Shown piece by piece: positions 2,331-17,034 of a DNA stretch of 64,000 nucleotides. Below the pieces are notes generated by a model. The model worked only from the letters and a program-made list of their open reading frames with translations. It was not told the origin of the DNA and did no database searches. How positions within the stretch are numbered: the first letter of the stretch is position 1; each line of letters begins with the position of its first letter. Both the position numbers and the translations under genes were made by a program. This stretch comes from Hydrogenophaga sp. (GTDB lineage Bacteria; Pseudomonadota; Gammaproteobacteria; Burkholderiales; Burkholderiaceae_C): positions 1 through 64,000 of the forward strand of contig NZ_JADMKB010000132.1 of NCBI RefSeq assembly GCF_018780075.1, given 5' to 3'.

Positions 2331-3260
2331 TCACCTGAACTGCCCGGGGGCGGTCCCCCCCAGCACATTGCCGGCGGCACCAAACGCGGGAATCTTTGAA
2401 AACACATCGGTCATGAAGTCCATGAACACGATGGCCCGTTTCGAAAGCAGCCTGTTGGCCACGTAGATGATCTGAATCGGCACGAGTGGCGGCGCGTATT
2501 CCGACAGCACCAACTGCAAGCTGCCGTCTTTGAGCCCCTCGGCGAACAGCCACGCCGGTCCGTGTGCAATCCCCAATCCGGCGGTCACACTGGCTCGAAC
2601 GGCCTCGGGTGAGTTGACCCGCAGCCTGCCGGATACCGGGACTTCGGTGTCTCGAAAGCGCCATGTCGCACCGGAGGACAACAGGGTGTAGATCAGGCAA
2701 TCGTGCTCGCGCAGGTCATCCGGGACGAGGGGGATACCTCGCCTGGCGAGATAGTCCTTGCTGGCGACACACACCCGCTCGAACATACCGATGCGCCGGG
2801 CGCGCAGTGCGCTGTCCTCCAGGTGTCCGATGCGGATCGCCAACTCGGTCCCTTCGTCCACCAGGTTCACGTAGCGGTCGTTGATCTGCAGATCCAGCGT
2901 CAATCTGGGGTATCTCTCCAGAAAAGTCGGCACCTGTGGCATCACAAAGGCATGGGCCAGTGCGGTCGGACAGGCCACGCGCAAGAGTCCCGAGGGATCG
3001 ACGGTGTCCCTGAATGAGGATTCCGACTCGTCCACGGCATCCAGGATTCGCCGGACGTCGGCGTAGTAGCGCTCGCCCTCCGGCGTCAAGGACAGCTTGC
3101 GGGTGGACCGGTGCAGCAGCCGCGTTTGCAGGTGTTCTTCCAGCGCGGCCACATAGCGGCTGACGTTGGGTTGCCCCAGGCCCAGGTCGCGCCCCGCAGC
3201 AGAAAAACTCCCTGTCTCCACGGCGCGGGCGAAGCAGGTCATCAAGAGCAGTCGGTCCAT
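2331..3260 (-). CDS. LysR family regulator, CrgA-like
   Basis: The protein begins MDRLLLMTCF, where the ATG at 3260 is preceded by AAGGA at good spacing; an upstream ATG at 3278 has no such site. The LysR winged helix lies in residues 1-60 (FSAAGRDLGLGQPNVSRYVA) and is followed by a periplasmic-binding-protein-like effector domain. The protein is about 309 residues, normal for the family. It is divergent from the SDR gene at 3388 with 127 bp between, so it very probably controls the SDR and glutathione transferase genes. The inducer is unknown. Confidence 0.9.
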   Translation of the reverse strand: MDRLLLMTCFARAVETGSFSAAGRDLGLGQPNVSRYVAALEEHLQTRLLHRSTRKLSLTPEGERYYADVRRILDAVDESESSFRDTVDPSGLLRVACPTALAHAFVMPQVPTFLERYPRLTLDLQINDRYVNLVDEGTELAIRIGHLEDSALRARRIGMFERVCVASKDYLARRGIPLVPDDLREHDCLIYTLLSSGATWRFRDTEVPVSGRLRVNSPEAVRASVTAGLGIAHGPAWLFAEGLKDGSLQLVLSEYAPPLVPIQIIYVANRLLSKRAIVFMDFMTDVFSKIPAFGAAGNVLGGTAPGQFR

Positions 3261-3387
3261 GTTTTCCTTCTTATTCATGCCAATGATGCATGAAACATAT
3301 TCAGAAGTCAGATCTTATGCAACTAAAGGCATGGATGCACATTACTCCCAGGCGACCGCGGTTGGTCGTCATCCAAAGGAGAACTTC

Positions 3388-4140
3388 ATGTCCCGCCTGC
3401 AAGGCAAACGCACCCTCATCACTGGCGGCACCAGCGGCATCGGCCTGGAAACCGCCAAGCAGTTTCTGGCCGAAGGCGCCCGCGTCATCGTGACCGGTGT
3501 CCATCCCGATTCGATCGCGAAGGCCCAGGCCGAACTCGGCTCCGAGGTCCCGGTGCTGCGCGCGGACTCGGCCAGCGTCGCCGCGCAGAAAGAACTGGCA
3601 CAAGCCGTCCAGGACCACTACGGCCAGCTGGACGTCGCCTTCCTCAATGCCGGCGTGTCCGTCTGGCGGCCCATCGAGGAATGGACGGAAGACATGTTCG
3701 ACCGCTCGTTCGGCATCAACGTCAAGGGACCTTACTTCCTGCTCCAGGCCCTGCTGCCGGTGTTCGCGAATCCCGCTTCCGTGGTGCTCAACACGTCCGT
3801 CAGCGCCCATACCGGCGCGGACCGCTCGTCCGTCTATGCCGCCACCAAGGCGGCATTTCTGAACATGTCGAAGACGCTCTCGACCGAATTGCTCGGGCGC
3901 GGCATCCGTGTCAACGCGGTCAGTCCCGGTCCGGTCGAGACGCCGCTGTACGACAAGGCCGGCATCCCCGAGGCCTACCGCGAGCAGGTCAACAAGGCGA
4001 TTGTGTCGACCATCCCGCTCGGCCGCTTCGGCACGCCCGAAGAGGTGGCCAAGGCCGTGCTGTACCTGGCCTCCGACGAATCCCGCTGGACCGTGGGCTC
4101 GGAAATCGTGGTGGACGGCGGCCGCCTGCTCAACCGCTGA
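3388..4140 (+). CDS. SDR family oxidoreductase
   Basis: The ATG at 3388 follows AAAGGAGAA and gives 250 residues, the standard classical SDR length. The cofactor motif TGGTSGIG is at 12-19, NAG at 87-89, the catalytic Ser at 137, and the Tyr150-x3-Lys154 pair in SVYAATK. The protein is therefore an intact NAD(P)-dependent alcohol/ketone oxidoreductase. It is divergent from the LysR gene and is followed 63 bp later by a glutathione transferase gene, which suggests a small detoxification unit. The substrate is unknown. Confidence 0.92.
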   Translation: MSRLQGKRTLITGGTSGIGLETAKQFLAEGARVIVTGVHPDSIAKAQAELGSEVPVLRADSASVAAQKELAQAVQDHYGQLDVAFLNAGVSVWRPIEEWTEDMFDRSFGINVKGPYFLLQALLPVFANPASVVLNTSVSAHTGADRSSVYAATKAAFLNMSKTLSTELLGRGIRVNAVSPGPVETPLYDKAGIPEAYREQVNKAIVSTIPLGRFGTPEEVAKAVLYLASDESRWTVGSEIVVDGGRLLNR

Positions 4141-4203
4141 TTGCGCAATGTGTGCGGTGCGTCAACGACCGTGGCCACCGCACCACCACTTTGAAAGAGC
4201 TTC

Positions 4204-4878
4204 ATGACCGAGACCCAACTCACCCTCATCAGCCATCCGCTGTGCCCCTTTGTCCAGCGGGCGGCGATCGTGCTGCTGGAAAAGGGCGTTCCCTTTGACA
4301 GGATCAATGTCGATCTGGCGGCCAAGCCTGGCTGGTTTCTGGAAATCTCGCCCACTGGCAAGGTTCCCGTGCTCCGGGTGCGGCAGCATGATGGTACGGA
4401 AGCCATCATTTTCGAGAGCATGGCGATCTGCGAATACCTTGAGGAGTCGCAGGGCGGCACACCGATGTATCCGCTTGATGCGCTGGCCCGTGCCCGCCAC
4501 CGGGGCTGGGTTGAGTTCGGCACGGCAACTCTCGCCGACGCTTGGCAGTTTCTCAACGCCACCGACCGTCCGTCTGCGGATGCCAAGCAGGCGGCGTTCC
4601 GACACCGCCTCCAACAACTGGAGGCGGCGCTTGGGTCGGGGCCCTATTTCAACGGTGCCGCCTTGGGCATGGTGGACGCCGTTTGTGCACCCATCTTTCG
4701 CTACTTCGACATCCTCGATCCGGCGGTGTCGCGCTCCATCTTCGAGAACTTGCCACGCGTGTCAGCGTGGCGGAACGCGCTGGCGCTGCGCCGCAGCGTC
4801 ATCGACGCCGTGGGGAGCGACTATGCGGAGCGATTCAGAAACCACCTTCGTGACCACGCGGCGCTGCTCGCCAACTGA
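4204..4878 (+). CDS. Glutathione S-transferase family protein
   Basis: This 224-residue protein has a thioredoxin-fold N-terminal domain starting with LISHPLCPFVQRAAI, the cis-proline motif TGKVPVL, and the glutathione-binding FESMAICEYLEE segment, followed by an all-helical C-terminal domain. The cysteine in the CPF segment suggests an omega- or beta-like class. It conjugates or reduces substrates with glutathione in the cytoplasm. It lies downstream of and co-oriented with the SDR. The stop at 4878 is 10 bp from the stop of the convergent LysR gene. Confidence 0.88.
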   Translation: MTETQLTLISHPLCPFVQRAAIVLLEKGVPFDRINVDLAAKPGWFLEISPTGKVPVLRVRQHDGTEAIIFESMAICEYLEESQGGTPMYPLDALARARHRGWVEFGTATLADAWQFLNATDRPSADAKQAAFRHRLQQLEAALGSGPYFNGAALGMVDAVCAPIFRYFDILDPAVSRSIFENLPRVSAWRNALALRRSVIDAVGSDYAERFRNHLRDHAALLAN

Positions 4879-4888
4879 CCCGTAGGAT

Positions 4889-5773
4889 TCACGGCTCCGT
4901 GGCCCGCAACTCGTCGTGCAGCCAATCCACCAGCTTCACCACATCGGGTCTGCGGCTGAGGTGCGGAGCGGTCCAGATCGAGAGCCGGTTGGGGCCGCGC
5001 ACAAAGCCCATGGGCGCCACCAGGGTGCCACTCATCAGATCGTCCCGCACCAGCATGCGGGGCACATTGGCCATGCCCAGACCGCAGCGGGCGCCCTGGA
5101 TCAGCAGGTAGAAATGGTCGAACGACTGGTCGACCCGCAACGCCTGATCTGGTTGCGTACTGCAGCGGGCCCAGTCTGCCCAGGCCGTCGGTCGGGTGCG
5201 CGAGACCATGAGCCGTGCCCGTGCGAGGTCCTCGAACGACCCGATGCGTTGCTGCCGCAGGTACTCCGGCGAACACACCGGCCCGATCCACTCATGCGCC
5301 ACATCCGCGCGCACGGCGTCCTTGGGCGGCTCGATCGATGACAGGCGAATGGCCACGCTGACGTTGTCGTGAGCGAAGTCGATCGGCCCATGGCTCATGT
5401 TGAAGCGCAGCTCCACCTCTGGGTTGTCTTCCTTGAAGCGGCCCAGCCTGGGAATGAGCCAGTACATCATGATCGACTCCGAACACGCCAGGGTGAGCGG
5501 GCCCGGCTTCAGTTGCTCAACGCTGGACTGGATCAACCCGAAGGCCTTCGAGAGGCCCTCCGCCAGGCGCTGCCCTTCGCCGGTCGGCGTGGCTCCCTGC
5601 GCCGTGCGCTGCAGCAGCGCCAGACCCAGCGTGTCTTCCAGCATCCGGACATGGCGGCTGACCGCGCCATGCGTGACCGACAGCTCTTCAGCCGCAGCGC
5701 TGAAGCTGCGCAGACGTGCCGTCGCCTCAAAGGCTCGCAAGGCATTGAGCGAAAGTCGATGGGACGGGGTCAT
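4889..5773 (-). CDS. LysR family regulator, GcvA-like, probable regulator of the RuBisCO-like operon
   Basis: The start at 5773 (MTPSHRLSLNALRAFEATAR) is preceded by GGAGAG; an ATG at 5842 has no such site. The helix-turn-helix FSAAAEELSVTHGAVSRHV and the sequence pattern resemble GcvA-type LysR proteins, with an effector-binding C-terminal domain. The protein is about 294 residues. It is divergent from the RuBisCO-like gene at 5909 with only 135 bp between, so the sugar-acid operon is its likely target. Confidence 0.9.
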   Translation of the reverse strand: MTPSHRLSLNALRAFEATARLRSFSAAAEELSVTHGAVSRHVRMLEDTLGLALLQRTAQGATPTGEGQRLAEGLSKAFGLIQSSVEQLKPGPLTLACSESIMMYWLIPRLGRFKEDNPEVELRFNMSHGPIDFAHDNVSVAIRLSSIEPPKDAVRADVAHEWIGPVCSPEYLRQQRIGSFEDLARARLMVSRTRPTAWADWARCSTQPDQALRVDQSFDHFYLLIQGARCGLGMANVPRMLVRDDLMSGTLVAPMGFVRGPNRLSIWTAPHLSRRPDVVKLVDWLHDELRATEP

Positions 5774-5908: not shown

Positions 5909-7183
5909 ATGACCAAGACCCCTCCCCGCGCCGAGTTCACCGCGCGCTACTTCGTCGAAAGTTCGGTCGCCTCCGAGAAGGTCGCGCAGGTCATCGCTGG
6001 CGAACAATCCAGCGGCACCTTCCTCGCACTGCCCGGTGAGACGGACGAGCTCAAGGAGCGCTCACGCGCCCGTGTCACCCGCATCGAGCCGCTCGCTCCG
6101 GCGCTGCAGCCCACGCTGCCCAGCGCGTACGTTGATCGCCACCCGCACGGTGGTGTGTTTCATCGGGCCGAGATCGACATCGCATTCCCGGTGGCGAACG
6201 TCGGCGCCAGTCTGTCCAGCCTGTTGGCCACGGTGGCAGGCAACCTGTATGAGTTGGGCGAGGTCACCGGTTTGCGCCTGTTGGACCTGGAACTGTCTCC
6301 CGACCACGCCGCCCAGTTCGCCGGCCCGGCCTTCGGCATTCCCGGCACCCGCCGGTTGGCCGGGGTCCATGGCCGGCCGCTGATCGGCACCATCATCAAG
6401 CCCAGCATCGGCCTCACGCCCGGCCAGACCGCCGAACTGGTCGACCAGCTGTGTGCGGCCGACATCGACTTCATCAAGGACGATGAGCTGATCGCCGATC
6501 CGCCCTATGCGCCATTCGACGAACGCCTGCGGGCTGTCATGCCGGTGTTGCAACGCCACGCCGACCGCCTGGGCCGGATGCCGATGTACGCGATCAACAT
6601 CTCCGGTTCGATCGACGAGATGCTGCGACGCCACGACGCAGTGCTCGCTGCGGGCGGCACCTGCGTGATGGTCAGCATCAACTGGGTCGGCTTCGCCGGC
6701 GTGGAGCACCTGCGCCGCCACGCACAGCTGCCGATCCACGGCCACCGCAACGGCTGGGGTGCGCTCACGAGGCACCCGGGACTGGGCTTCTCGTTCAAGG
6801 CATACCAGAAGCTGTGGCGCCTGGCGGGCGTGGACCACCTGCATGTCAACGGCATCCGCAGCAAGTTCTGTGAGTCGGATGACTCGGTCATCGCGTCGGC
6901 CCGTGCCTGCCTGACCCCATGGGCAGGGGTGCAGGCTCTGATGCCGGTGTCTTCGTCGGGCCAGTGGGCGGGCCAGGCACCGGACCTGTACTCGGCCCTG
7001 GGCACGGTGGACCTCATGCACCTCGCCGGTGGCGGAATCATCGGTCACCCAGACGGCATCGCTGCGGGCATGGCCAGCATGCGCGAGGGCTGGGAGGCGG
7101 CGGTGGCCGGCGTGGGCCTGAACACCTACGCCGAAACGCACCCCGCACTCAAGCGTGCATTGGTGCACTTCTCTGGTCGGTAA
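5909..7183 (+). CDS. RuBisCO-like protein, putative 3-oxo sugar-acid phosphate decarboxylase or related enzyme
   Basis: This 424-residue protein aligns by motif with the RuBisCO large subunit. GTIIKPSIGL (K164) corresponds to the catalytic KPK loop, but its second Lys is Ser. FIKDDE (K190, D192, E193) keeps the carbamylated-Lys metal site. Also present are HR at 279-280, DHLH (H312), K319, and the phosphate-binding GGG at 374-376. Retention of the metal and phosphate sites argues for an active enzyme rather than a carboxylase. It is the first gene of an operon with a DUF1537 kinase. In the described D-apionate pathways a RuBisCO-like OiaX or a transcarboxylase/hydrolase acts on 3-oxo-isoapionate 4-phosphate made by the DUF1537 kinase OiaK, so a similar decarboxylation is the best guess. 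No methionine-salvage genes are nearby. Confidence 0.85.
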   Translation: MTKTPPRAEFTARYFVESSVASEKVAQVIAGEQSSGTFLALPGETDELKERSRARVTRIEPLAPALQPTLPSAYVDRHPHGGVFHRAEIDIAFPVANVGASLSSLLATVAGNLYELGEVTGLRLLDLELSPDHAAQFAGPAFGIPGTRRLAGVHGRPLIGTIIKPSIGLTPGQTAELVDQLCAADIDFIKDDELIADPPYAPFDERLRAVMPVLQRHADRLGRMPMYAINISGSIDEMLRRHDAVLAAGGTCVMVSINWVGFAGVEHLRRHAQLPIHGHRNGWGALTRHPGLGFSFKAYQKLWRLAGVDHLHVNGIRSKFCESDDSVIASARACLTPWAGVQALMPVSSSGQWAGQAPDLYSALGTVDLMHLAGGGIIGHPDGIAAGMASMREGWEAAVAGVGLNTYAETHPALKRALVHFSGR

Positions 7184-7186
7184 GTG

Positions 7187-8596
7187 ATGACCTCGACGGA
7201 CAAGCCCCAAACCCTGAAGCTCGCCTTCTACGGCGATGACTTCACCGGTTCCACCGATGCCCTGGAAGTCCTGGCCTTTGGCGGGCTGCGCTGCGCGCTC
7301 TTCCTGTCGGTGCCAACGCCGTTGCAGATGGCCGCGCTGGGCGGCTTCGACGCCATCGGCGTGGCCGGCGCCAGCCGGGCGATGTCGCCGGACGAGATGG
7401 ACGCGGAGTTGCCCGACGTACTGAGCGGGCTCGCCGCCCTGGCGCCGCAGATCGTGCACTACAAGGTGTGCTCCACCTTCGACAGCGCGCCGACCGTGGG
7501 CAACATCGGCCGGGTCATCGAGCTTTCGCGGTCGGCCTTCCCGCAGCCCGTGGTGCCCATCATCGCCAGCACGCCGGCGCTGGGCCGCTACTGCCTGTTC
7601 GGTCACCTGTTTGCGCGGTCGGGCACCGATGACGAGGTCTACCGCATCGACCGCCACCCGATCATGAGCGTGCACCCGGTGACGCCGATGCAGGAATCCG
7701 ACGTGGCCCGTCACCTGCAGAAACAGGCGCCGCTGGCCATCGGCAACGTGCCGCTGACCTGGCTCGACACCGCGTCACCCGCCGCACTGGCGGAGCGCAT
7801 CGCCGACATGGCGCCGTCCCGGCAAGCGGTGGTGATCGACGGCCTGAGCCCCGAACACCTGACCGCGACGGGCAACTGCCTTCAGCACATGGCCTCTGCG
7901 CTGGGTGCGCCGCTCTTCGTCGTCGGTTCGTCGGGCGTCGAGTACGCGTTGACGCAGTCCTGGCAGCATGAAGGCGCCGCTCCGTCGGCCGATCCCTACG
8001 GGACCTTCGATGCCGTCGACCAGGTGCTGGTCGTGTCGGGCAGCGCCTCGAAGCTCAGTGCCATGCAGATCGAAGCGGCGCTGGACGCCGGCTTCCGCGA
8101 GGTGGCGATCGATGTGGAGGCGCTGACCATCGGTCCGGACACCGCTGCGGCCGAGGCGCGCCTCGTGAGCGAGGTCGTCAGCGCGCTGGCCAGTGGCGCC
8201 AGCGTGGTGATGCACACCGCCCGCGGCCCGTCCGACCCGCGGGTGGCCCGGTTGATCCAGGGCCTACAGGCCCAAGGCTGCAGCCTGGAGCAGGCGCGCC
8301 ACCAGAGCGGGCGCATGGTCAGTGAACGGCTGGGGATCGTGGTGGACGCCATCGTTCGTCGCCACCGGCTGCGCCGCCTGGTGCTGTCGGGGGGCGACAC
8401 GTCCAGCCGCATCACGCAGGCCCTCGGCCCCGACGCACTGGAGATTCGCGCCCGCCTGGCGCCCGGCGCACCGCTGTGTGCCGCGCTGTCGTCGGCGCCC
8501 CACCTGAGCGGACTCGAACTGGCCCTCAAGGGCGGGCAGATGGGCGCTCCCGATTACTTCGTCCGTGCGCTGCGGGGCAGCGCAGCGTCCACCTGA
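7187..8596 (+). CDS. Four-carbon acid sugar kinase family protein (DUF1537), OiaK-like
   Basis: The protein (about 469 residues) opens with FYGDDFTGSTDALEV, the N-terminal signature of the DUF1537 sugar-acid kinase family. It carries VLSGGDTSS and LKGGQMGAPDYF in the C-terminal nucleotide-binding domain. Members phosphorylate D-threonate, 3-oxo-tetronates or 3-oxo-isoapionate with ATP. A GTG at 7184 and an ATG at 7187 follow the stop of the RuBisCO-like gene directly, so translation is probably coupled. The product is expected to feed the RuBisCO-like enzyme. The exact substrate cannot be read from the sequence. Confidence 0.88.
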   Translation: MTSTDKPQTLKLAFYGDDFTGSTDALEVLAFGGLRCALFLSVPTPLQMAALGGFDAIGVAGASRAMSPDEMDAELPDVLSGLAALAPQIVHYKVCSTFDSAPTVGNIGRVIELSRSAFPQPVVPIIASTPALGRYCLFGHLFARSGTDDEVYRIDRHPIMSVHPVTPMQESDVARHLQKQAPLAIGNVPLTWLDTASPAALAERIADMAPSRQAVVIDGLSPEHLTATGNCLQHMASALGAPLFVVGSSGVEYALTQSWQHEGAAPSADPYGTFDAVDQVLVVSGSASKLSAMQIEAALDAGFREVAIDVEALTIGPDTAAAEARLVSEVVSALASGASVVMHTARGPSDPRVARLIQGLQAQGCSLEQARHQSGRMVSERLGIVVDAIVRRHRLRRLVLSGGDTSSRITQALGPDALEIRARLAPGAPLCAALSSAPHLSGLELALKGGQMGAPDYFVRALRGSAAST

Positions 8597-8638
8597 CGCA
8601 TGGATCCATTCACACAAAACCACCTAGGAGACGTTCTC

Positions 8639-9412
8639 ATGCCATCCACCAACACACCACAGCGCGTCGCGGTCGTCACCGGCGGCGCCATGGGCATCGG
8701 CGCCGAAGTCTGCCGGCGCCTGGGCGCTGCGGGCTTCACCGTCGTCGTCGCCGACCGCGACCAGACCGCCGCCGAGACCACCGCGGCCCATCTGCGCGCC
8801 GAGGGCGCAGTCGCCGAAGCGCAGGCCATCGACGTCGGAGATGCGGCATCGGTCGACAGCGCCTTCGCCGCCATCGAGCAGCGACACGGCCGCTGCGACG
8901 TCCTGGTCAACTCGGCCGGCATCGCCAAGGTCTATCCCTTCCTGGAGTTTCCGGACGACAACTTCGCGGCCACCATGGCCGTCAACGTCACCGGCACCTT
9001 CCTGTGCAGCCAGCGCGCAGCGCGCCTGATGGTGCGCAACCAGTGGGGCCGCATCGTCAACATCGCCTCGGTGGCGGGCATGCGCGCCGTCGGCTCCGGA
9101 CGCACGGCCTACGGCACGTCCAAAGGCGCGGTGATCGCGCTGACCCGCCAGATGGCGGTCGAGCTGGCCGAGCACGGCGTGACGGCCAACGCGGTGGCGC
9201 CCGGCCCGGTGGACACGCCGATGACCCGCGCGCTGCACACCGACCAGTTCCGTCAGGAGTACTGCAAAGCCATCCCGATGAACCGGTACGGCACGCCCGG
9301 CGAGATTGCCGCGGCCGTGATGTACCTGGTATCCGAAGACGCCGGCTACACCAGCGGCGTCACCTTGCCGGTCGACGGGGGCTTTCTCTCGTCCGGCGCC
9401 CGCGGTTTGTAA
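8639..9412 (+). CDS. SDR family oxidoreductase, putative sugar-acid dehydrogenase
   Basis: The ATG at 8639 is preceded by TAGGAG, giving 257 residues. TGGAMGIG is at 14-21, NSAG at 91-94, Ser144, and Tyr158-x3-Lys162 (TAYGTSK), so all classical SDR catalytic residues are present. In this operon it would oxidise a hydroxy sugar acid to the 3-oxo acid that the DUF1537 kinase phosphorylates. This replaces the D-apionate oxidoisomerase of the described apionate route, for which no homologue is seen here. Confidence 0.88.
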   Translation: MPSTNTPQRVAVVTGGAMGIGAEVCRRLGAAGFTVVVADRDQTAAETTAAHLRAEGAVAEAQAIDVGDAASVDSAFAAIEQRHGRCDVLVNSAGIAKVYPFLEFPDDNFAATMAVNVTGTFLCSQRAARLMVRNQWGRIVNIASVAGMRAVGSGRTAYGTSKGAVIALTRQMAVELAEHGVTANAVAPGPVDTPMTRALHTDQFRQEYCKAIPMNRYGTPGEIAAAVMYLVSEDAGYTSGVTLPVDGGFLSSGARGL

Positions 9413-9435
9413 ACCATCCACTCAAGGAGACAGCA

Positions 9436-10458
9436 ATGAACATCATGAAACTCAAGACCCTCTCTGCCGGCTTGCTCGGCGCACTGCTCGTGGCCGGCGC
9501 GACCGGCGCCATGGCGGCGGACATCAAGGAACGCACGATCAAGTACGCCGTCATCTACGACATCAAGCACCCGCACGGCCTGGGAGCGCAGAAGTTCGCC
9601 GATCTGGTGGCCCAGCGCAGCGACAACAAGATCAAGGTCAAGGTCTTTCCCAACGCGACATTGGGTGGTGAGGTCGCGATCATCTCGGCGATGCAGGGCG
9701 GCACCGTGGAAATGTCGGCCGTGGCGACGTCGCAGCTCGTCGGCGTGATCAAGGACTTTGCCGCGCTGGATCTGCCCTTCCTGTTCAGCAACGAGAAGGA
9801 GGTCGATCGCGTTGTCGAAGGCCCCGTCGGCAAGACCTTCCTCGACAAGATGCCGGTGAAGGGCCTGGTCGGCCTGTCCTTTTTCGAGCACGGCTTCCGC
9901 AACCTGACCAACAGCCGGCACCCGGTGACGAAGCTCGAGGACATCCAGGGGCTGAAGATCCGTGTGGAGCAGAACTCCGTCGCGATCGACACCTGGAACA
10001 CGCTCGGCGCCAACGCGGTGCCCATGCCCTTCCCCGAGCTGTACGGCGCGCTGGAGCAGAAGGCGGTGGACGGCCAGGAGAACCCCTACAGCACGGTCGA
10101 CAGCGCCAAGTTCTACGAAGTGCAGAAGTACCTGAGCGTCACCAAGCACAAGTACACCCCGCTGGTCGTGACCCTGAGCAAGAAGTTCTGGGACCAGCTC
10201 TCCGCCGACGAGAAGAAGCTCATCCAGGATGCGGCCGTCGAGGCCGCCGTGTACCAGCGCAAGGCCAACCGCGACCTCAGCGAGCAGTACCTCCAGTCCC
10301 TGAAGAAGGTCGGCATGCAGATCAACGAGATCCCCGCCGCGGAGCTGGTGCGCATGCGCGCCAAGGTGCAGCCGGTGGTGGACAAGTACAGCGCGCAGAT
10401 CGGCGGCACGCTGGTCAAGGACCTCTTCGGCGAGATCGAGAAGGCTCGCAAGCCCTGA
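9436..10458 (+). CDS. dctP: TRAP transporter substrate-binding protein, DctP family
   Basis: This 340-residue periplasmic protein has a Sec signal peptide ending near GAMA/AD (residue 28) and the DctP fold. The conserved LEDIQGLKIRVEQN segment carries the arginine that anchors a carboxylate ligand, so the substrate is an organic acid. AAGGAGA precedes the ATG at 9436. It is followed by the DctQ and DctM genes, so the operon encodes its own high-affinity uptake system, presumably for the acid that the upstream enzymes degrade. Confidence 0.92.
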   Translation: MNIMKLKTLSAGLLGALLVAGATGAMAADIKERTIKYAVIYDIKHPHGLGAQKFADLVAQRSDNKIKVKVFPNATLGGEVAIISAMQGGTVEMSAVATSQLVGVIKDFAALDLPFLFSNEKEVDRVVEGPVGKTFLDKMPVKGLVGLSFFEHGFRNLTNSRHPVTKLEDIQGLKIRVEQNSVAIDTWNTLGANAVPMPFPELYGALEQKAVDGQENPYSTVDSAKFYEVQKYLSVTKHKYTPLVVTLSKKFWDQLSADEKKLIQDAAVEAAVYQRKANRDLSEQYLQSLKKVGMQINEIPAAELVRMRAKVQPVVDKYSAQIGGTLVKDLFGEIEKARKP

Positions 10459-10603
10459 GCCATCAGCCCGGTCGGTCCACGGCGCACGGGTATCGAACCA
10501 CCCGCGCGCGGTGCCCGGCCGTGCGACCGCAGCGAACCTGCCCACCAGGCAAAGCCGTTCGCTGGCGGCCCAACAGATCGCTGACCCAAAGGAGACAAAC
10601 CCA

Positions 10604-11200
10604 ATGACCCAGGTCCTCGATGGCTTCTGTCGAGTTCTCGAATTGCTGATGGCAGCGGCTCTGGCCGTGATGGTCGTGCTGGTGTTCGGAAACGTTGTCC
10701 TGCGCTACGGCTTCAACTCGGGCATCACGGTGTCGGAGGAGGTCTCGCGCTGGCTGTTCGTCTGGCTGACGTTCCTCGGCGCCATCGTCGCGATGCGCGA
10801 TCACGCGCACCTCGGCAGCGACATGCTGGTCTCGCGCCTGCCCGTCATCGGCAAGAAGATCTGCCTCGTCATCGGCCACCTCCTGATGCTCTACATCACG
10901 TGGCTGCTGTTCAGTGGCGCGCTGGCGCAGGCGCGCATCAACCTCGACGTGCAGGCGCCGGTCACCGGTGCCTCGATGGCGATCCTGTACTTCGCTGGCA
11001 TCGTCTTCGCGGTCGTTGCCGCGCTGTTCCTCGCCTATGAACTCTGGCTGGTGCTGACCGGCCAGCTCAGCGACGAGGAGCTTGTGATGGTCAAGGAGTC
11101 CGAAGAGCAGGAGGAGCTGGAGGCGCTGCAGGCCGAACTGGCCCGCGAGCACGCCGAGACACCCGCGCATCTTCAACCGTCCGCCGGAGCCCAAAAATGA
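10604..11200 (+). CDS. dctQ: TRAP transporter small permease, DctQ family
   Basis: The ATG at 10604 follows AAAGGAGA and gives 198 residues with four predicted membrane helices, the DctQ topology. The charged C-terminal tail is rich in Glu and Ala (about residues 155-198), longer than in many DctQ proteins. The 3' end overlaps dctM by 4 bp. It pairs with DctM to form the inner-membrane symporter. Confidence 0.9.
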   Translation: MTQVLDGFCRVLELLMAAALAVMVVLVFGNVVLRYGFNSGITVSEEVSRWLFVWLTFLGAIVAMRDHAHLGSDMLVSRLPVIGKKICLVIGHLLMLYITWLLFSGALAQARINLDVQAPVTGASMAILYFAGIVFAVVAALFLAYELWLVLTGQLSDEELVMVKESEEQEELEALQAELAREHAETPAHLQPSAGAQK

Positions 11201-12477
11201 CGATTGCCGTTTTCCTCGGGGCGCTGATGGGCGCCATGGCGCTGGGCATCCCGATCGCCTTCGCGCTGCTGGCCACCGGCGTCGCGCTGATGGTCCACCT
11301 CGACATGTTCGACGCGCAAATCCTCGCGCAGAACGTGATCAACGGCGCCGACAGCTTCCCTCTGCTCGCGATCCCGTTCTTCATGCTGGCCGGCGAGATC
11401 ATGAACGTCGGCGGACTCTCGCAGCGCATCGTCAACTTCGCGCTTGCGCTGGTCGGCCACGTCAAGGGCGGCCTCGGCTACGTCACGATCCTGGCGGCGA
11501 TCCTGCTGTCGGCGCTGTCGGGCTCTGCGGTCGCCGACGCCGCCGCGCTGACCGCTCTGCTGCTGCCGATGATGGTGCGGGCCGGTCACGACAAAGCGCG
11601 CTCGGGCGGCCTGATCGCCGCAGCGGGTGTCATCGGGCCGGTCATCCCGCCCTCCATCGGCTTCGTCATCTTTGGCGTGGCGGCCAACGTGTCCATTTCC
11701 AAGCTGTTCCTGGCCGGGATCTTCCCGGGCATCCTGATCGGCCTGGCGCTGTGGATCACCTGGATGATCCTGGTGCGCAAGGAGAAACTTGTTCCGCCGC
11801 CGCGCAAGTCGGGCCAGGAGATGGTCCGCGCGCTGTTCGACGCGTCGTGGGCGCTGATGTTGCCAGTGATCATCCTCGTCGGCCTGCGTTTCGGCGTGTT
11901 CACGCCGACCGAGGCCGCCGTCGTCGCCGCGGTCTACGCGCTGTTCGTCTCGACGGTGATCTACCGCGAGCTGAAAGCCCGGCAGCTCTATGCGATCTTC
12001 GTGACGGCGGCCAAGACGACCGCGGTCGTGATGTTCCTCATTGCCGCGGCCATGGTCTCTGCCTGGCTGATCACGGTGGCCGACCTGCCGAGCAAGATCG
12101 CCGTCCTGCTGGAGCCGTTCATGGGCAACCAGACGCTGCTGCTGATCGCGATCATGGTGCTGTGCATGATCGTCGGCACGGCGATGGACATGACGCCGAC
12201 GATCCTGATCCTGACGCCGGTGCTGATGCCGATCGTCAAGCAGGCAGGCATCGACCCGGTCTACTTCGGCGTGCTGTTCATCATCAACAACTCGATCGGT
12301 CTGATCACCCCGCCGGTCGGCACGGTGCTCAGCACCGTCGCTGGTGTCGGGCGCATGAAGATGGACGAAGTGACGCGCGGCGTCTTGCCTTTCATGCTCG
12401 CCGAGTTCGTGATCCTGCTGTTGATGGTGCTGTTCCCTCAACTGGTGACCGTGCCTGCAAAGTGGTTCATCGGCTGA
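11197..12477 (+). CDS. dctM: TRAP transporter large permease, DctM family
   Basis: This 426-residue hydrophobic protein has about 12 membrane segments and DctM hallmarks such as the AIPFFMLAGEIMN segment near residue 58 and NNSIGLITPPVGTVL near residue 365. It is the ion-coupled transport subunit. It overlaps dctQ by 4 bp, so the two are translationally coupled. It is the last gene of the sugar-acid operon. Confidence 0.95.
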   Translation: MTIAVFLGALMGAMALGIPIAFALLATGVALMVHLDMFDAQILAQNVINGADSFPLLAIPFFMLAGEIMNVGGLSQRIVNFALALVGHVKGGLGYVTILAAILLSALSGSAVADAAALTALLLPMMVRAGHDKARSGGLIAAAGVIGPVIPPSIGFVIFGVAANVSISKLFLAGIFPGILIGLALWITWMILVRKEKLVPPPRKSGQEMVRALFDASWALMLPVIILVGLRFGVFTPTEAAVVAAVYALFVSTVIYRELKARQLYAIFVTAAKTTAVVMFLIAAAMVSAWLITVADLPSKIAVLLEPFMGNQTLLLIAIMVLCMIVGTAMDMTPTILILTPVLMPIVKQAGIDPVYFGVLFIINNSIGLITPPVGTVLSTVAGVGRMKMDEVTRGVLPFMLAEFVILLLMVLFPQLVTVPAKWFIG

Positions 12478-12964
12478 CGACTTGACTTGCTACCTGAGCA
12501 ACCGAACAGGCTCTTCCTGTGTGGGTACTTGCGGCAAAAAGACAAAAACAGCAACGCTGGTGATGGCACCCTGCGAGCGCGGACTGCGTCGACCTGACGC
12601 TCGCCCGCTTTCGGAAGACAGCCGCCATTCAGGCTTAGATCCTGAATGGCGGCTGTCGCTGCATACCGTCCCTTGAATTCCTAGACCAGGTGCGCCTGCA
12701 GCTCTTACTCCATGCAAGCTGCCATCGGTCTGCGCTGTCAAGCTGCTTGACAGATTGCGGCTGAATTGCAGGACGCTTCCTGTGCCGCCTTCTCCTGTTT
12801 GTTCCTGCCTCCCGGTCGCATTTCTCGGCTACTGGCCAAAGGGGTCGGACGGTCCGACCCTTTCAGGTCGAACAGAAGAGAGAAGGATAGGATTGATGGC
12901 AGGATAGGCTGTGCGCCAGCAAATGGCTGCCAAGCAGCAGTGTCATCAAGGGAGGAAATCAAGA
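12478..12964. other. Non-coding interval between the TRAP operon and the nuclease-helicase island
   Basis: No convincing gene is seen in these 487 bp. The interval holds a 17-bp perfect inverted repeat (12617-12657) and a second hairpin near 12838-12863 with GGGTCGGA/TCCGACCC arms around a 3-nt loop flanked by AAA/TTT. The sequence looks less codon-structured than its neighbours, as expected at the edge of an inserted segment. Confidence 0.5.
12617..12657. repeat. Perfect 17-bp inverted repeat, REP-like
   Basis: GACAGCCGCCATTCAGG at 12617-12633 is repeated exactly in inverse at 12641-12657 around a 7-nt loop. No T-run follows on either strand, so it is not a standard intrinsic terminator. 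It resembles dispersed palindromic elements of proteobacterial intergenic regions; copy number in the genome is unknown. Confidence 0.6.
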
Positions 12965-13843
12965 ATGGCGAGACGCAAGAGAACAAGCACGGCCGACGAC
13001 CTGCTGGAATTGGTGGCGATGCTGCCCTGGTGGGCCGGCGTGCTGCTGGCGCTGGTGAGCTACTTCGTGCTTCACAACATTGCATCCCAACCGGTGGTAG
13101 CGCCCTCGCAGCCCGGTCAAATGGGCGCTATGGTCACGCGATCCATCTGGAAATCGCTGGCCATGGCGGGCCAGTACATCCTCCCTTTCATTTGCTTGCT
13201 GGGTGCGGGCACGTCTGCCTGGCGGCGGCGTGAGCGAAAGAACCTGGTGGCTGATGTGGCCAGGAGCAAGGCGACCGACGCGCTGGATGGCATGAGCTGG
13301 CGCGAGTTCGAAATGCTGGTGGGGGAAGGGTTTCGGTTGCAGGGCTACCAGGTGGTAGAAACCGGGGGCTGCGGTGCCGACGGCGGCGTGGATCTCGTGC
13401 TCACCAAGCCGGGCAAAAGTGGCGGCGAAAAATTCCTCGTGCAGTGCAAGCAGTGGCGCGCCTACAAGGTTGGCGTGGACGTGGTGCGCGAGCTGTACGG
13501 TGTGATGGCCGCCAAGGGCGCCACCGGCGGGTTCGTCGTGACCTCGGGAAAGTTCACCGATGAGGCGATCAGCTTTGCGAGCGGTCGCAACGTGGCGCTG
13601 GTCGATGGGCCGAAGCTGCACGGCCTGTTGCGGCAAGCCCAGGCGGGTGCCGAGCGCTCGCCAGCCCAGAAACCTGCTGTCCCGGTGGCTCGCTCCCCTG
13701 CTCCGTCAACTCAGGCTCTGACTTGTCCCCTGTGTGCGAAACCCATGGTTCGGCGCACCGCCAAACGCGGCGCCAATGCCGGCAACGAGTTCTGGGGCTG
13801 CACCGGCTACCCGACCTGCCGTGGCACACGCCAGATCAACTGA
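12965..13843 (+). CDS. Membrane-anchored Mrr-type restriction endonuclease with C-terminal topoisomerase-like zinc finger
   Basis: GGAGG precedes the ATG at 12965 and gives 292 residues. Two hydrophobic segments (about 18-38 and 66-83) form a membrane anchor. An Mrr_cat nuclease domain follows (about 105-225), with the D-QxK active site visible as GADGGVD (D139 or D143) and LVQCKQW (Q160, K162). After a Pro/Ala linker, C254, C257, C279 and C285 form a topoisomerase I-type zinc finger. Proteins of this build cut DNA, some of it modified. The helicase gene begins 14 bp downstream, so the two probably work together. Not to be read as a complete restriction-modification system, since no methylase is present. 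Confidence 0.88.
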   Translation: MARRKRTSTADDLLELVAMLPWWAGVLLALVSYFVLHNIASQPVVAPSQPGQMGAMVTRSIWKSLAMAGQYILPFICLLGAGTSAWRRRERKNLVADVARSKATDALDGMSWREFEMLVGEGFRLQGYQVVETGGCGADGGVDLVLTKPGKSGGEKFLVQCKQWRAYKVGVDVVRELYGVMAAKGATGGFVVTSGKFTDEAISFASGRNVALVDGPKLHGLLRQAQAGAERSPAQKPAVPVARSPAPSTQALTCPLCAKPMVRRTAKRGANAGNEFWGCTGYPTCRGTRQIN

Positions 13844-13857
13844 TCCCAAGGACAACG

Positions 13858-16800
13858 ATGGCATTGCCCGATGGTCTCTATGACCTGTTGTTGACCGAGG
13901 GGTTGGCTCGATCGTTGGCAGACCTCGATCCGTCACGGGCCGATGTGTCGGCGCTCAAGGGTGGGGCAGCTGAGTTCCTGGCCGATGTCATCACCCGTCA
14001 GCTCTCGACCATCCTCGACGATGTGTCTGGCGACGAGGCCGAGAAAGCCAAACGACAACTTGAACTGGTCAATGAACTGCTGTTGATGCTTCGTCAGCGG
14101 CTCGCAGGAAGCAGTGCGGGTGGCACCTTTGCGTCTGGTGAAGTGGTTGACCTGGTGGCGCCGCCGCTGCGGGTCCTGAGGGCTGTGCAGCGCGACCAGC
14201 AGTTCCCCGTGTCGCCGGAGATCGGGCTAGGCGTGCCCTGGCTGTTCACGGCTGGCAAAGGCTCACCCTCGCTGCTCCAGGAGATTCGTCGCGAGCTGGC
14301 ATCGAGCGATCAAGTGGACATCCTGGTCAGCTTCATCACCGTCTCCGGCGTGCGCAAGCTGCAGGATGTGCTGCAGCAGATCACGGCCAAGGGTGCGCAG
14401 CAGGATGGAGAGACGCAACCGAAGACCCGGCTGCGCATCCTCACCACCACATACACGGGTGCGACCGAGGCTCGCGCGCTGGACGAGCTCGCCCGTCTGC
14501 CCGGGTGTGAAGTTCGCGTGTCACTGGATGGCCGACGCACCCGTCTGCATGCCAAAGCCTGGCTGTTCCAGCGAAAGACCGGCTTTGGTTCGGCGTATGT
14601 CGGCAGCGCCAACCTCTCGGGAGCTGCTCTTACCGGCGGGCTGGAGTGGACGGTCAAGCTGACCCAGCGCGCGCAAGAAGCCCTGTTTACCCGCGCCGTG
14701 GCCCACTTCGAGACGCTGTGGGCGGACAGCGAGTTTCAGCGCTACGACCCGGACAACGTCGAACACAGACAAGCCCTGGCGGCTGCGCTGGGCCGCGAGT
14801 CGTTTGGCGGCGAGCCGGCGGCCACCATCAGTTTCTTCGACCTGCAGCCCAAGACCTACCAGCTGGAAATGCTGGAGCAGCTGACCAACGAGCGCGCGCA
14901 CGGTCGAACCCGAAACCTCCTGGTGGCGGCCACCGGCACGGGCAAGACGGTGGTGGCGGCGTTTGACTATCGGAACACCTGCCGTATCGAGGGTGGGCGC
15001 CCTCGCCTGCTGTTTGTGGCCCACCGAGAGGAAATCCTGCGCCAGGCCATGCGCACCTACCGCGAGGTGCTGCGCGATCCCGAGTTCGGCGACCTGCTCA
15101 CCGGGAGCCACCAACCCGAACGCTGGGGCCATCTGTTCGCCACCATCGACAGCGTCACCAGCCGCGACCTGGTGGCCACCGTCGGTGCCGACAACTGGCA
15201 CACGGTGGTGGTGGATGAATGCCACCGCCTGGCGGCCGATCGGTTCGACGTATTCGCCAGGGCCGTTCGTCCCAGCGTGTTGCTCGGGCTGACGGCGACG
15301 CCTGAGCGCAGCGACGGTCAACCCATCGCGCCGTATTTCGATTCGCGTCCCGACGGGAGCCCTGCGGTCGAGCTGCGGCTGTGGCACGCGCTGGACCTGC
15401 AGCTGCTGGCGCCGTTCGAGTACTACGCATGCGACGACGCCACCGATTTTTCGGAAGTGCCTTGGGACAGGCCAGGGGAACGCGAGGCGGTGAACAACCT
15501 GGTCACAGGCAACGACGTGCGCGCCAAACTGGTCATCAATGAATGGCGTCGTCTGGCTTCCGATGCGCGGCAGTCTCGGGCCATCGTTTTCTGTGTGTCG
15601 GTGGCGCACGCAGAGTTCATGACCGATTGGTTCAACCGCGCCGGTCTGCCAGCAGCCTGCGTGGTTGGCACGACAGCATCCGAAGAACGGCGACGTGCGC
15701 CGCAACGCCTGCTCAGCGGCGAGCTGTGCGCGTTGGTCACGGTGGATCTCTACAACGAGGGCATCGACTTGCCGATGGTGGACACGCTGCTGTTGCTGCG
15801 CCCCACTCAGAGCCCGGTGCTGTTCCAGCAACAGATCGGCCGTGGTCTGCGTTTGGCCCCCGGCAAGGAGAGTTGCCTGGTGCTCGACTTCGTCGGGCAA
15901 CACCGGGCCGAGTTTCGGTTTGACCGACTCTTGTCGAGCCTGACCGGCCTGTCGCGACGCGAACTGGTGGACGGCGTTGAGAACGGCTTCGGCAGCTTGC
16001 CGCCCGGATGCCACATCCACCTGCAGCGCCAGACGCGAGAACAGGTGCTGCAAGGCCTGCGATCCCTGACGTCCCAGAACTGGCGCCGTCTGAAGACCGA
16101 GCTGCAGACCTATGCGGCGCTGCGTGGCCGATCGTCGATTCAACTGGCCGACTTCCTGCACGACCAGGCACTGGAACTGGAAGACATCTACCGCGCCGGT
16201 ACCGGACAAGGTCGTAGCGGCTGGACATCGCTCAAGCGCGATGCGGGCTTGATCGTCGCAGAGCCAGAACCTGAAGAGGACTACTTCAGCCGCCGCTTTG
16301 GCGATCTGCTGCATGTGGACGATCCACGCCGGCTCGATGTGATGACTGCTGTGGGTTCGCGCCAAGGGAGTTCACCAGCACTTAGTGCTGAGGAGGCGCT
16401 GGGCGTGCAGATGCTGGCCTATCAGATCGATGGACGCCACGAACAGGCAGCGGGGTATGAAGCCTTCCTGGCACGCTTGGAGGGTCACCCAACCATCGCT
16501 GCCGAGCTGGTGGAACTGTCCGCCCTTCTGCAGGCCCGCAGCACCTTGGGCGCGCATCCTGTGCCTGGACTCGAAGACACGCCCTTGTGCCTGCATGCGG
16601 GCTACGGTGCGCGCGAAATCCTCACTGCGGTGCGCTGGCTGACGGCGTCGCGCCGCGTGCCGTTCCAGGCCGGCACACTGTCTTTGCTCAGCCGCCAGAC
16701 CGAGCTGCTGTTCGTCACGCTCGACAAGAGCGAGGGCTACCACGACCGCATCGCGTATCACGACTACGCGATCAGCGCCGAGCGCTTTCACTGGCAGTCC

Positions 16801-17034
16801 CAGAACAGCGCAGGCCCAGACACGCCTGGCGGTCGGCGCTATCTCGAAAGCGCGACCAACGGATGGCAGTTCCAGCTCTTCGTGAGACCGCGCAAGGGCG
16901 AGGCCTACCGCGCCTGCGGCCCGGTCACGCTGGAGTCGGCCGAGGGTGACCGACCGATGAGCATCGTCTGGAAGTTGGAGACGCCGTTGCCAGCGCGGCT
17001 GTTCCGAGAGTTCAGTGTGCTGCGCGGGGTGTAG
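13858..17034 (+). CDS. PLD-nuclease/SF2 helicase (DUF3427-type), putative defence protein
   Basis: This 1058-residue protein starts at 13858 after AAGGACAACG. It contains a phospholipase D-like domain with LHAKAWLF near residue 231 and GSANLSG near 249. An SF2 helicase core follows, with Walker A ATGTGKT near 359 and DECH near 452, then the second RecA domain with QQIGRGLRLAPGK, and a C-terminal region like DUF3427. Helicases of this architecture are often found in mobile or defence islands. It is directly downstream of the Mrr-type nuclease and adjoins a tRNA gene, which supports horizontal acquisition. The specific function is unknown. Confidence 0.87.
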   Translation: MALPDGLYDLLLTEGLARSLADLDPSRADVSALKGGAAEFLADVITRQLSTILDDVSGDEAEKAKRQLELVNELLLMLRQRLAGSSAGGTFASGEVVDLVAPPLRVLRAVQRDQQFPVSPEIGLGVPWLFTAGKGSPSLLQEIRRELASSDQVDILVSFITVSGVRKLQDVLQQITAKGAQQDGETQPKTRLRILTTTYTGATEARALDELARLPGCEVRVSLDGRRTRLHAKAWLFQRKTGFGSAYVGSANLSGAALTGGLEWTVKLTQRAQEALFTRAVAHFETLWADSEFQRYDPDNVEHRQALAAALGRESFGGEPAATISFFDLQPKTYQLEMLEQLTNERAHGRTRNLLVAATGTGKTVVAAFDYRNTCRIEGGRPRLLFVAHREEILRQAMRTYREVLRDPEFGDLLTGSHQPERWGHLFATIDSVTSRDLVATVGADNWHTVVVDECHRLAADRFDVFARAVRPSVLLGLTATPERSDGQPIAPYFDSRPDGSPAVELRLWHALDLQLLAPFEYYACDDATDFSEVPWDRPGEREAVNNLVTGNDVRAKLVINEWRRLASDARQSRAIVFCVSVAHAEFMTDWFNRAGLPAACVVGTTASEERRRAPQRLLSGELCALVTVDLYNEGIDLPMVDTLLLLRPTQSPVLFQQQIGRGLRLAPGKESCLVLDFVGQHRAEFRFDRLLSSLTGLSRRELVDGVENGFGSLPPGCHIHLQRQTREQVLQGLRSLTSQNWRRLKTELQTYAALRGRSSIQLADFLHDQALELEDIYRAGTGQGRSGWTSLKRDAGLIVAEPEPEEDYFSRRFGDLLHVDDPRRLDVMTAVGSRQGSSPALSAEEALGVQMLAYQIDGRHEQAAGYEAFLARLEGHPTIAAELVELSALLQARSTLGAHPVPGLEDTPLCLHAGYGAREILTAVRWLTASRRVPFQAGTLSLLSRQTELLFVTLDKSEGYHDRIAYHDYAISAERFHWQSQNSAGPDTPGGRRYLESATNGWQFQLFVRPRKGEAYRACGPVTLESAEGDRPMSIVWKLETPLPARLFREFSVLRGV

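Follow-up and report, generated by a model that had tools for sequence, protein, structure and literature searches.

The operon described here has parts in common with several described systems. In the D-apionate (oia) pathway, reportedly worked out by Carter et al. in 2018, the enzymes are said to be ApnO, OiaK and OiaX/OiaC. Pfam family PF16896 we take to be the apionate oxidoisomerase (ApnO) type, which presumably forms its 3-oxo acid by oxidation plus rearrangement. In the 3-oxo-tetronate (otn) pathways, a DUF1537 kinase phosphorylates a 3-oxo acid. For Ochrobactrum anthropi, a D-hamamelose pathway that depends on a RuBisCO-like protein (RLP) has been published (Kim, Lim & Lee 2018, as cited in excerpts of PMC8914248 and PMC10176493), and reactions are known for only a handful of RLPs (excerpt of PMC10176493). 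We analyzed a 64,000-nucleotide stretch of Hydrogenophaga sp. DNA (‘the window’) carrying an operon for an RLP, a DUF1537 kinase, a short-chain dehydrogenase/reductase (SDR) and a tripartite ATP-independent periplasmic (TRAP) transporter. On balance, we favor the reading that this operon is a sugar-acid catabolic module, a dehydrogenase-first variant of the oia route in which oxidation by the SDR would be followed by the kinase and an OiaX-type RLP step.

The open reading frame (ORF) list and Pfam place seven genes as the original prediction had them, with an operator-like site between the first two:

4889..5773 (ORF to 5842), minus strand: LysR-family regulator, 294 aa; Pfam HTH_1 and LysR_substrate, 94 bits
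5811..5849, plus strand: operator-like site TGTGA-N7-TCACA-N13-ATATCGTTT, 39 bp, between LysR and RLP, 0 mismatches
5909..7183, plus strand: RLP of the OiaX/OiaC type, 424 aa; RuBisCO_large, 249 bits; NF042437
7184..8596, plus strand: DUF1537-type kinase of the OiaK type, start GTG 7184 or ATG 7187; SBD_N/NBD_C (PF07005/PF17042), 175/118 bits; NF042436
8639..9412 (ORF from 8600), plus strand: SDR dehydrogenase ‘SDR1’, 257 aa; PF13561/PF00106; adh_short_C2, 215 bits
9436..10458, plus strand: TRAP solute-binding protein DctP; PF03480, 307 bits
10604..11200, plus strand: TRAP small permease DctQ; PF04290, 86 bits
11197..12477, plus strand: TRAP large permease DctM; PF06808, 407 bits

The start of DctM overlaps the end of DctQ by 4 bases. 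SDR1 more likely starts at 8639 and DctQ at 10604, both downstream of the mechanical ORF starts and each preceded by AGGAG. The LysR start was put at 5773 because homologues are 294 aa long (L003, L004 and L006; L numbers denote loci and G numbers genomes) and because the longer ORF overlaps the operator; the divergent promoter region between LysR and RLP is then 135 bp. Genes in the other loci were called with our own codon-model script, not taken from curated annotation, and labeled by best BLASTP match to a small reference set.

The RLP matches the OiaX model NF042437 best in a profile search (483.7 bits, curated cut-off 700), with 250.9 bits to the type III RuBisCO model; its nearest solved chain is 3nwr (458 bits). 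Kinship with the methionine-salvage enolase MtnW, also a RuBisCO-superfamily protein, had been named beforehand as the finding that would speak against the proposal. MtnW was rejected at only 183.1 and 146.7 bits (cut-offs 409 and 513.6), and the OiaX kinship stands. The kinase likewise matches the OiaK model NF042436 best (397.9 bits, curated cut-off 700), in line with the OiaK kinship claimed for it; an assignment as 3-oxo-tetronate kinase (OtnK) was rejected at 196.6 bits to OxoTetrKin against a cut-off of 350. The operon resembles the otn pathways in pairing a DUF1537 kinase with a presumed 3-oxo acid, but differs in this score and in using an RLP where those pathways have a decarboxylase of the aldolase type.

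The RLP was also rejected as a catalytic RuBisCO. Aligned to RuBisCO and given in RuBisCO residue numbering, it keeps the equivalents of N123, K175, K201, D203, E204, H294, R295, H327, K334, S379, G381, G403 and G404, but K177 is replaced by S166 and H298 by W283. All 104 RLP rows have S or N at position 177, where all 15 RuBisCO rows have K; position 298 is H in nine and N in six of the RuBisCO rows. The host has a second RuBisCO-family gene on contig 125 (RuBisCO_large, 465.7 bits), whose active-site positions group with those of catalytic RuBisCOs.

Compared with the oia pathway, the likeness lies in the best matches of RLP and kinase to OiaX and OiaK, and in an RLP-kinase adjacency and operator common to close relatives that bear PF16896. 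The differences are a dedicated SDR in place of a PF16896 protein, acid import by a TRAP transporter, and an operon without apiose dehydrogenase or lactonase. The host genome (G000, 5.39 Mb, 96.7% complete, the window being its contig 67) has 0 PF16896 matches, as does G040 of the same genus, which bears out the earlier claim that an apionate-oxidoisomerase homologue is absent. Pfam found no aldolase, isomerase or lactonase family among the six plus-strand genes of the operon, again as predicted for isomerase and aldolase.

SDR1 is a dedicated genome-wide partner of the RLP. In neighborhood counts, ‘SDR1’ means at least 55% identity to the window SDR; genome searches used an E-value limit and scored part of the SDR candidates, six per genome in a sample of 399 and 18 in a set of 147 relatives. 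Across those 399 genomes, sampled evenly from the order, SDR1 occurs in 15 (E <= 1e-88), the RLP in 27 (E <= 1e-100) and both in 13 (Fisher p = 2e-15, uncorrected for kinship). Among 48 genomes chosen for having an RLP of at least 61% identity, 39 hold SDR1 at 61% or more. These 48 hold 49 of the 50 such loci; L055 (62%, partial) was counted with 29 distant ones, and L075 and L076 (L081 assembly) were omitted. None of the 29 genomes with mostly more distant RLPs has SDR1 at 61% or above, the single match at E <= 1e-50 being 42% identical. All 10 plasmid records with SDR1 of at least 58% also carry the RLP. Together with the RLP-kinase adjacency, which recurs in most related loci, the genome-wide co-occurrence makes the gene association more than chance.

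The exceptions, with SDR1 and no RLP, are G651 and G636. In G651, locus L150 (kinase-DctP4-DctQM5-SDR1) begins 135 bases from a contig end, where the RLP may have been cut off; in G636, a TRAP set accompanies SDR1 (L149). In eight of the 13 genomes that have both, SDR1 and RLP are on separate contigs: inside long contigs in G103, G116, G126, G712 and G742, and on contigs of 7–8 kb, where assembly may have split the operon, in G138, G573 and G612. We opened 12 SDR1 places away from the RLP (L122, L123, L125–L131, L147–L149). TRAP proteins of the DctP4 and DctQM5 types adjoin SDR1 at five of them (L123, L128, L130, L147, L149), DctP4 lies near it at L131, and L122 has a 35% DctP4-like fragment.

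A contig scan kept 80 of 112 confirmed loci, and further loci came from the search of the 147 relatives. At loci whose RLP identity reaches 64% or more, the kinase is nearly always next and LysR usually divergent; the third enzyme varies. Most commonly it is the orthologue of the window SDR. The RLP-SDR1 pairing is seen in Burkholderiales, Pseudomonas, rhizobia and Azospirillum. At L026, L036, L037, L039, L040 and L045, a PF16896 protein is present. Rhodoferax loci L010, L011, L012 and L013 lack SDR1 and have a threonine-dehydrogenase-like zinc alcohol dehydrogenase (Zn-ADH); the operator is present there too, with 2–3 mismatches. In many Bacteroidota and planctomycete loci (L063, L066, L070, L071, L078 and others), an Asp/Glu-racemase-family protein follows RLP and kinase (PF01177 shown for L063).

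Further variants of these loci were seen. A conserved protein of about 440 aa often accompanies the racemase-type RLP-kinase loci, which looks like another module variant. Caballeronia/Paraburkholderia-type loci (L014, L017–L021, L023, L025, L114) additionally encode a zinc alcohol dehydrogenase, an aldehyde dehydrogenase and one more SDR, as though these bacteria first turned a primary alcohol into the acid. A 131–132 aa protein lies near PF16896 genes in L026, L036, L037, L039, L045 and L141; the L026 copy (5099–5497) has no Pfam or NCBIfam match. Kinship of the kinase also departs from that of the RLP (L003, RLP 90% and kinase 58%; L068, RLP 73% and kinase 79%), and kinases have likely been exchanged between loci.

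The original prediction allowed for a variant with an SDR first step, and SDR1 does replace the PF16896 enzyme beside related RLP-kinase pairs with a common operator. An RLP of the window type is present in 18 of the 147 relatives: six of these hold PF16896, six others SDR1 at 60% or more, and none both. No RLP-less genome among the 147 holds either enzyme. In the 48 RLP-picked genomes, PF16896 occurs in 12 (nine with SDR1, three without), SDR1 alone in 30, and neither in six, comprising four Rhodoferax and two with a 44–50% SDR near the RLP.

The two first enzymes are also intermixed on gene trees. The SDR1/PF16896 label switches at least four times on an RLP tree (105 rows, quick method) and at least three times on a kinase tree (96 rows). 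Rows of the RLP tree are at least 380 aa long and at least 40% identical, plus one RuBisCO; L002, L083 and L084 were left out as duplicates, and a few identical rows remain. Fifty rows are labeled (32 SDR1, 18 PF16896, with rows having both counted as SDR1) and 54 unlabeled (14 racemase, 40 other). We called a column separating if the majority residue differed and was held by at least 80% of SDR1 rows and at least 70% of PF16896 rows. By this definition, no RLP column separates the two, and two kinase columns do (L51/F and S291/T). The switches on the trees and the lack of separating RLP columns suggest that the same RLP-kinase chemistry serves both first steps.

The operator-like site, at up to 4 mismatches of 19, is present in 45 of 49 loci with an RLP of at least 66% identity, L092 standing outside the count because its upstream DNA is absent. 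By type, it occurs in 25 of 27 SDR1 loci, five of six PF16896 loci, all four Zn-ADH loci and 11 of 12 with none of these in view. It is found in 0 of 66 more distant loci, two of which (L115 and L152) show the exact dyad without the second box. Shuffled windows gave 0 sites; low-mismatch background entries in the count are probably random stretches overlapping real sites. The 5.39-Mb host genome has a single site at up to 2 mismatches, and the operator regulon in the host is probably this one operon. LysR would control the operon by binding the site.

In the proposed pathway, whose reactions, substrate, products and regulation are all read from sequence, DctPQM would import a polyhydroxy acid, most likely a 2-C-branched one. 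SDR1 would use NAD(P)+ to oxidize the C3 hydroxyl, giving the 3-oxo acid, 3-oxo-isoapionate or a near analogue, directly; the oxidation plus rearrangement of apionate oxidoisomerase would not be needed. Phosphorylation by the DUF1537 kinase would fall on the terminal hydroxyl, which in isoapionate is that of C4. The RLP would decarboxylate the product to an enediolate by way of the RuBisCO metal site and loop-6 lysine, then probably recarboxylate the neighboring carbon and hydrolyze to 3-phosphoglycerate (3-PGA) and glycolate (or an analogue). LysR would act through the one operator. The kinase and RLP substrate is probably 3-oxo-isoapionate or close to it, since an SDR stands at the place of the PF16896 enzyme, the operator is common and the RLPs are not separated. 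The order SDR, kinase, RLP on a sugar acid, as first predicted, keeps the support of the enzyme set and the OiaX/OiaK kinship; it is sharpened to an SDR replacing the PF16896 enzyme, with a likely 3-oxo-isoapionate-type substrate.

At a minority of loci, the neighboring genes give hints of 3-PGA and of a beta-keto intermediate. A beta-keto acid cleavage enzyme (BKACE, PF05853) lies beside SDR1 or one gene away at L141, L143, L144 and L145, consistent with SDR1 forming a beta-keto acid. In nine of 53 places, our calls put a pyruvate kinase gene no more than 9.5 kb from SDR1 (the L043 copy is a fragment and the L061 copy 39% identical), and there is one at Bradyrhizobium L113 too, where the SDR is 40%. 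A single cluster at L141 combines SDR1 with kinase, PF16896 protein, dehydratase, TRAP and BKACE; glcDEF, which would point to glycolate, is nearby and the RLP just past the fetched end. The host has a GlcD homologue (61%). In one set of annotated loci there was no glcDEF, hyi, glxR, garK or garL, and E. coli gcl and garR queries found only 24–31% neighbors, at five places. BKACE, an alpha/beta hydrolase and an IlvD/EDD dehydratase also occur in varying mixes at PF16896- and SDR1-type loci L036, L037, L038, L045, L123, L141 and L144, possibly a second sugar-acid branch.

The last step might instead be a plain decarboxylation, with the RLP acting like OiaC and yielding erythrulose phosphate or a homologue rather than 3-PGA. 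This alternative, possible though we would not bet on it, is compatible with the other readings: the top-scoring NCBIfam model carries a decarboxylase description, and both activities have been reported in this RLP group (excerpt of PMC6302742, on Carter et al. 2018). Against it stand the pyruvate kinase genes close to some SDR1 loci, the glcDEF genes close to L141 and the absence of a tetrose-phosphate enzyme among the six plus-strand genes.

The TRAP genes lie outside the conserved core. Window and L132, of the same genus, are about 92% identical in DNA from about 4891 to about 9400 (the SDR end), beyond which the TRAP sets are unrelated. This sharp module boundary at the SDR/DctP junction marks an exchange of the TRAP set between two genomes of one genus. 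Against L009, the DctQ-DctM DNA is 81% and the DctP protein 86% identical. The nearest solved relatives of the window DctP are 4p47 of O. anthropi (42%) and 7bbr, the sugar-acid-binding DctPAm of Advenella (40%), by Foldseek alignments. For the Delftia-type DctP, the PDB gave no match at E <= 1e-60; for the Rhodoferax type, it gave 4pc9/4pcd only. For two DctP groups, AlphaFold gave models of low quality (mean pLDDT 47.1 and 46.3), and Foldseek was used only for titles and identities of chains found by sequence.

DctP4-type proteins lie near SDR1 in 25 of 53 places. The type is 58% identical to 4oan, whose ligand was reportedly modeled as 2-acetolactate. 2-Acetolactate shares its carbon skeleton with 3-oxo-isoapionate, and a 2-C-branched acid fits the shared RLP and this clue from DctP4. 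The literature searched names neither 4oan nor RPB_2686; the new TRAP ligands given in an excerpt of PMC5812351 include both 2-acetolactate and six-carbon aldonates.

The transporter also bears on the main rival reading, catabolism of D-hamamelonate (2-carboxy-D-arabinitol, C6) as in the D-hamamelose pathway of O. anthropi. SDR1 would oxidize C3, the kinase would phosphorylate C5, and the RLP would decarboxylate and then oxygenate or hydrolyze the product to 3-PGA and glycolate or glycerate. We think this unlikely, although it ranks first among the rivals: excerpts of PMC8914248 and PMC10176493 cite a hamamelose pathway that depends on an RLP and is connected to 3-PGA and glycolate, the former putting the RLP at the end of the route. 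Rhizobial loci L115, L117, L151 and L152 carry LysR-RLP-kinase-SDR1 (inspecting rhizobial loci for a hamamelose gene set gave no link to the published one), the window DctP is closest to O. anthropi 4p47 and an aldonate-binding DctP, and the pyruvate kinase and glycolate genes would fit here too. However, the window operon has no lactonase and no sugar dehydrogenase besides SDR1, and the absence of an RLP column separating SDR1 from PF16896 loci argues for the same substrate size.

A less probable alternative is that SDR1 is an analogous D-apionate oxidoisomerase, oxidizing D-apionate at C2 before a rearrangement, so that the operon would serve D-apionate catabolism with a replaced enzyme. The window and L037/L045 are close enough to invite it: RLP 70–72%, kinase 55–56%, LysR 55–56%, DctPQM 49–50/56–57/69–71%, and a shared operator, with SDR1 in the one and a PF16896 protein, at a slightly different place in the operon, in the others. 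The complementary distribution of the two enzymes in relatives agrees. On the other side, an SDR would need to catalyze hydroxymethyl migration, and the presence of both enzymes in nine of 48 genomes and in the one L141 cluster suggests two entry reactions. We give very little credence to SDR1 oxidizing an aldose at C1, with the resulting acid then used: SDR1 is just over the cut-off of the ‘glucose 1-dehydrogenase’ subfamily NF005559 (221.2 versus 215), but the match is unspecific (231 models hit SDR1 at E <= 0.001), TRAP transporters as a rule import acids, the operon has no lactonase, and SDR1 neighbors a beta-keto-acid enzyme at four loci.

Several observations weigh against the favored reading, the dehydrogenase-first variant of the oia route. 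Both RLP and kinase score under the curated OiaX and OiaK cut-offs (484 and 398 versus 700). This miss says little about function, since related proteins miss as well: all 10 related RLPs tried score 409–548 bits to OiaX, five of them PF16896-linked (L060, L062, L067, L048, L037), and all eight related kinases tried, PF16896-linked ones among them, score 415–577 bits to OiaK. The identity of PF16896 as the ApnO type is our assumption. Mutual exclusion within the 18 RLP-bearing relatives alone gives p = 0.054, and exclusion is not general, as the nine genomes with both enzymes show. The window DctP falls outside the DctP4 type; its closest match is a protein that binds aldonates, and it would suit a straight-chain or C6 acid too. 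Five of the 12 SDR1 places distant from the RLP (L125, L126, L127, L129, L148) have no DctP4-type neighbor. The neighbors pointing to products are sparse, with glcDEF near L141 only and pyruvate kinase near a minority of places, two of the nine being weak. Finally, conditions that help wild-type Rhizobium etli and R. phaseoli do not bring their rlp mutants back to full growth, and the RLP there has been interpreted as functioning in CO2 fixation and in growth without biotin (excerpt of PMC8914248), which our account of SDR1 does not explain.

Outside the operon, an Mrr-type endonuclease-like gene (PF04471) and then an ORF of about 1060 aa, helicase-like by eye, lie directly downstream (window 12911–17034). 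Upstream, the LysR, SDR and GST-like genes at 2331–4878 form a neighborhood kept in L006 and partly in L028, L029 and L043.

The operon may provide a previously unmapped way of entering a known route. The SDR variant of the RLP-kinase route is not named in the titles and abstract openings of the literature searched, with most subscription journals outside it, and the published D-hamamelose RLP pathway, which likewise ends a sugar-acid route linked to 3-PGA and glycolate with an RLP (excerpts only), may overlap with the SDR1 route; a difference is that the window operon has no further sugar dehydrogenase and no lactonase. More tentatively, SDR1 could be the first isoapionate (2-C-hydroxymethyl-tetronate) 3-dehydrogenase or a 2-C-methyl-tetronate dehydrogenase, a second, rearrangement-free entry into RLP transcarboxylation, with branched polyols as the source at loci having zinc alcohol and aldehyde dehydrogenases. 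Such loci would then use apiitol or 2-C-methylerythritol, yielding 3-PGA and glycolate (or acetate).

Because this RLP group pairs with a different first enzyme, in the close relatives under the same operator, the question of the RLP substrate can be reduced to three assays of purified enzymes on a few candidate acids. Should the route reach 3-PGA by carboxyl transfer, it would put the second half of the RuBisCO reaction to catabolic use, independently of apionate.

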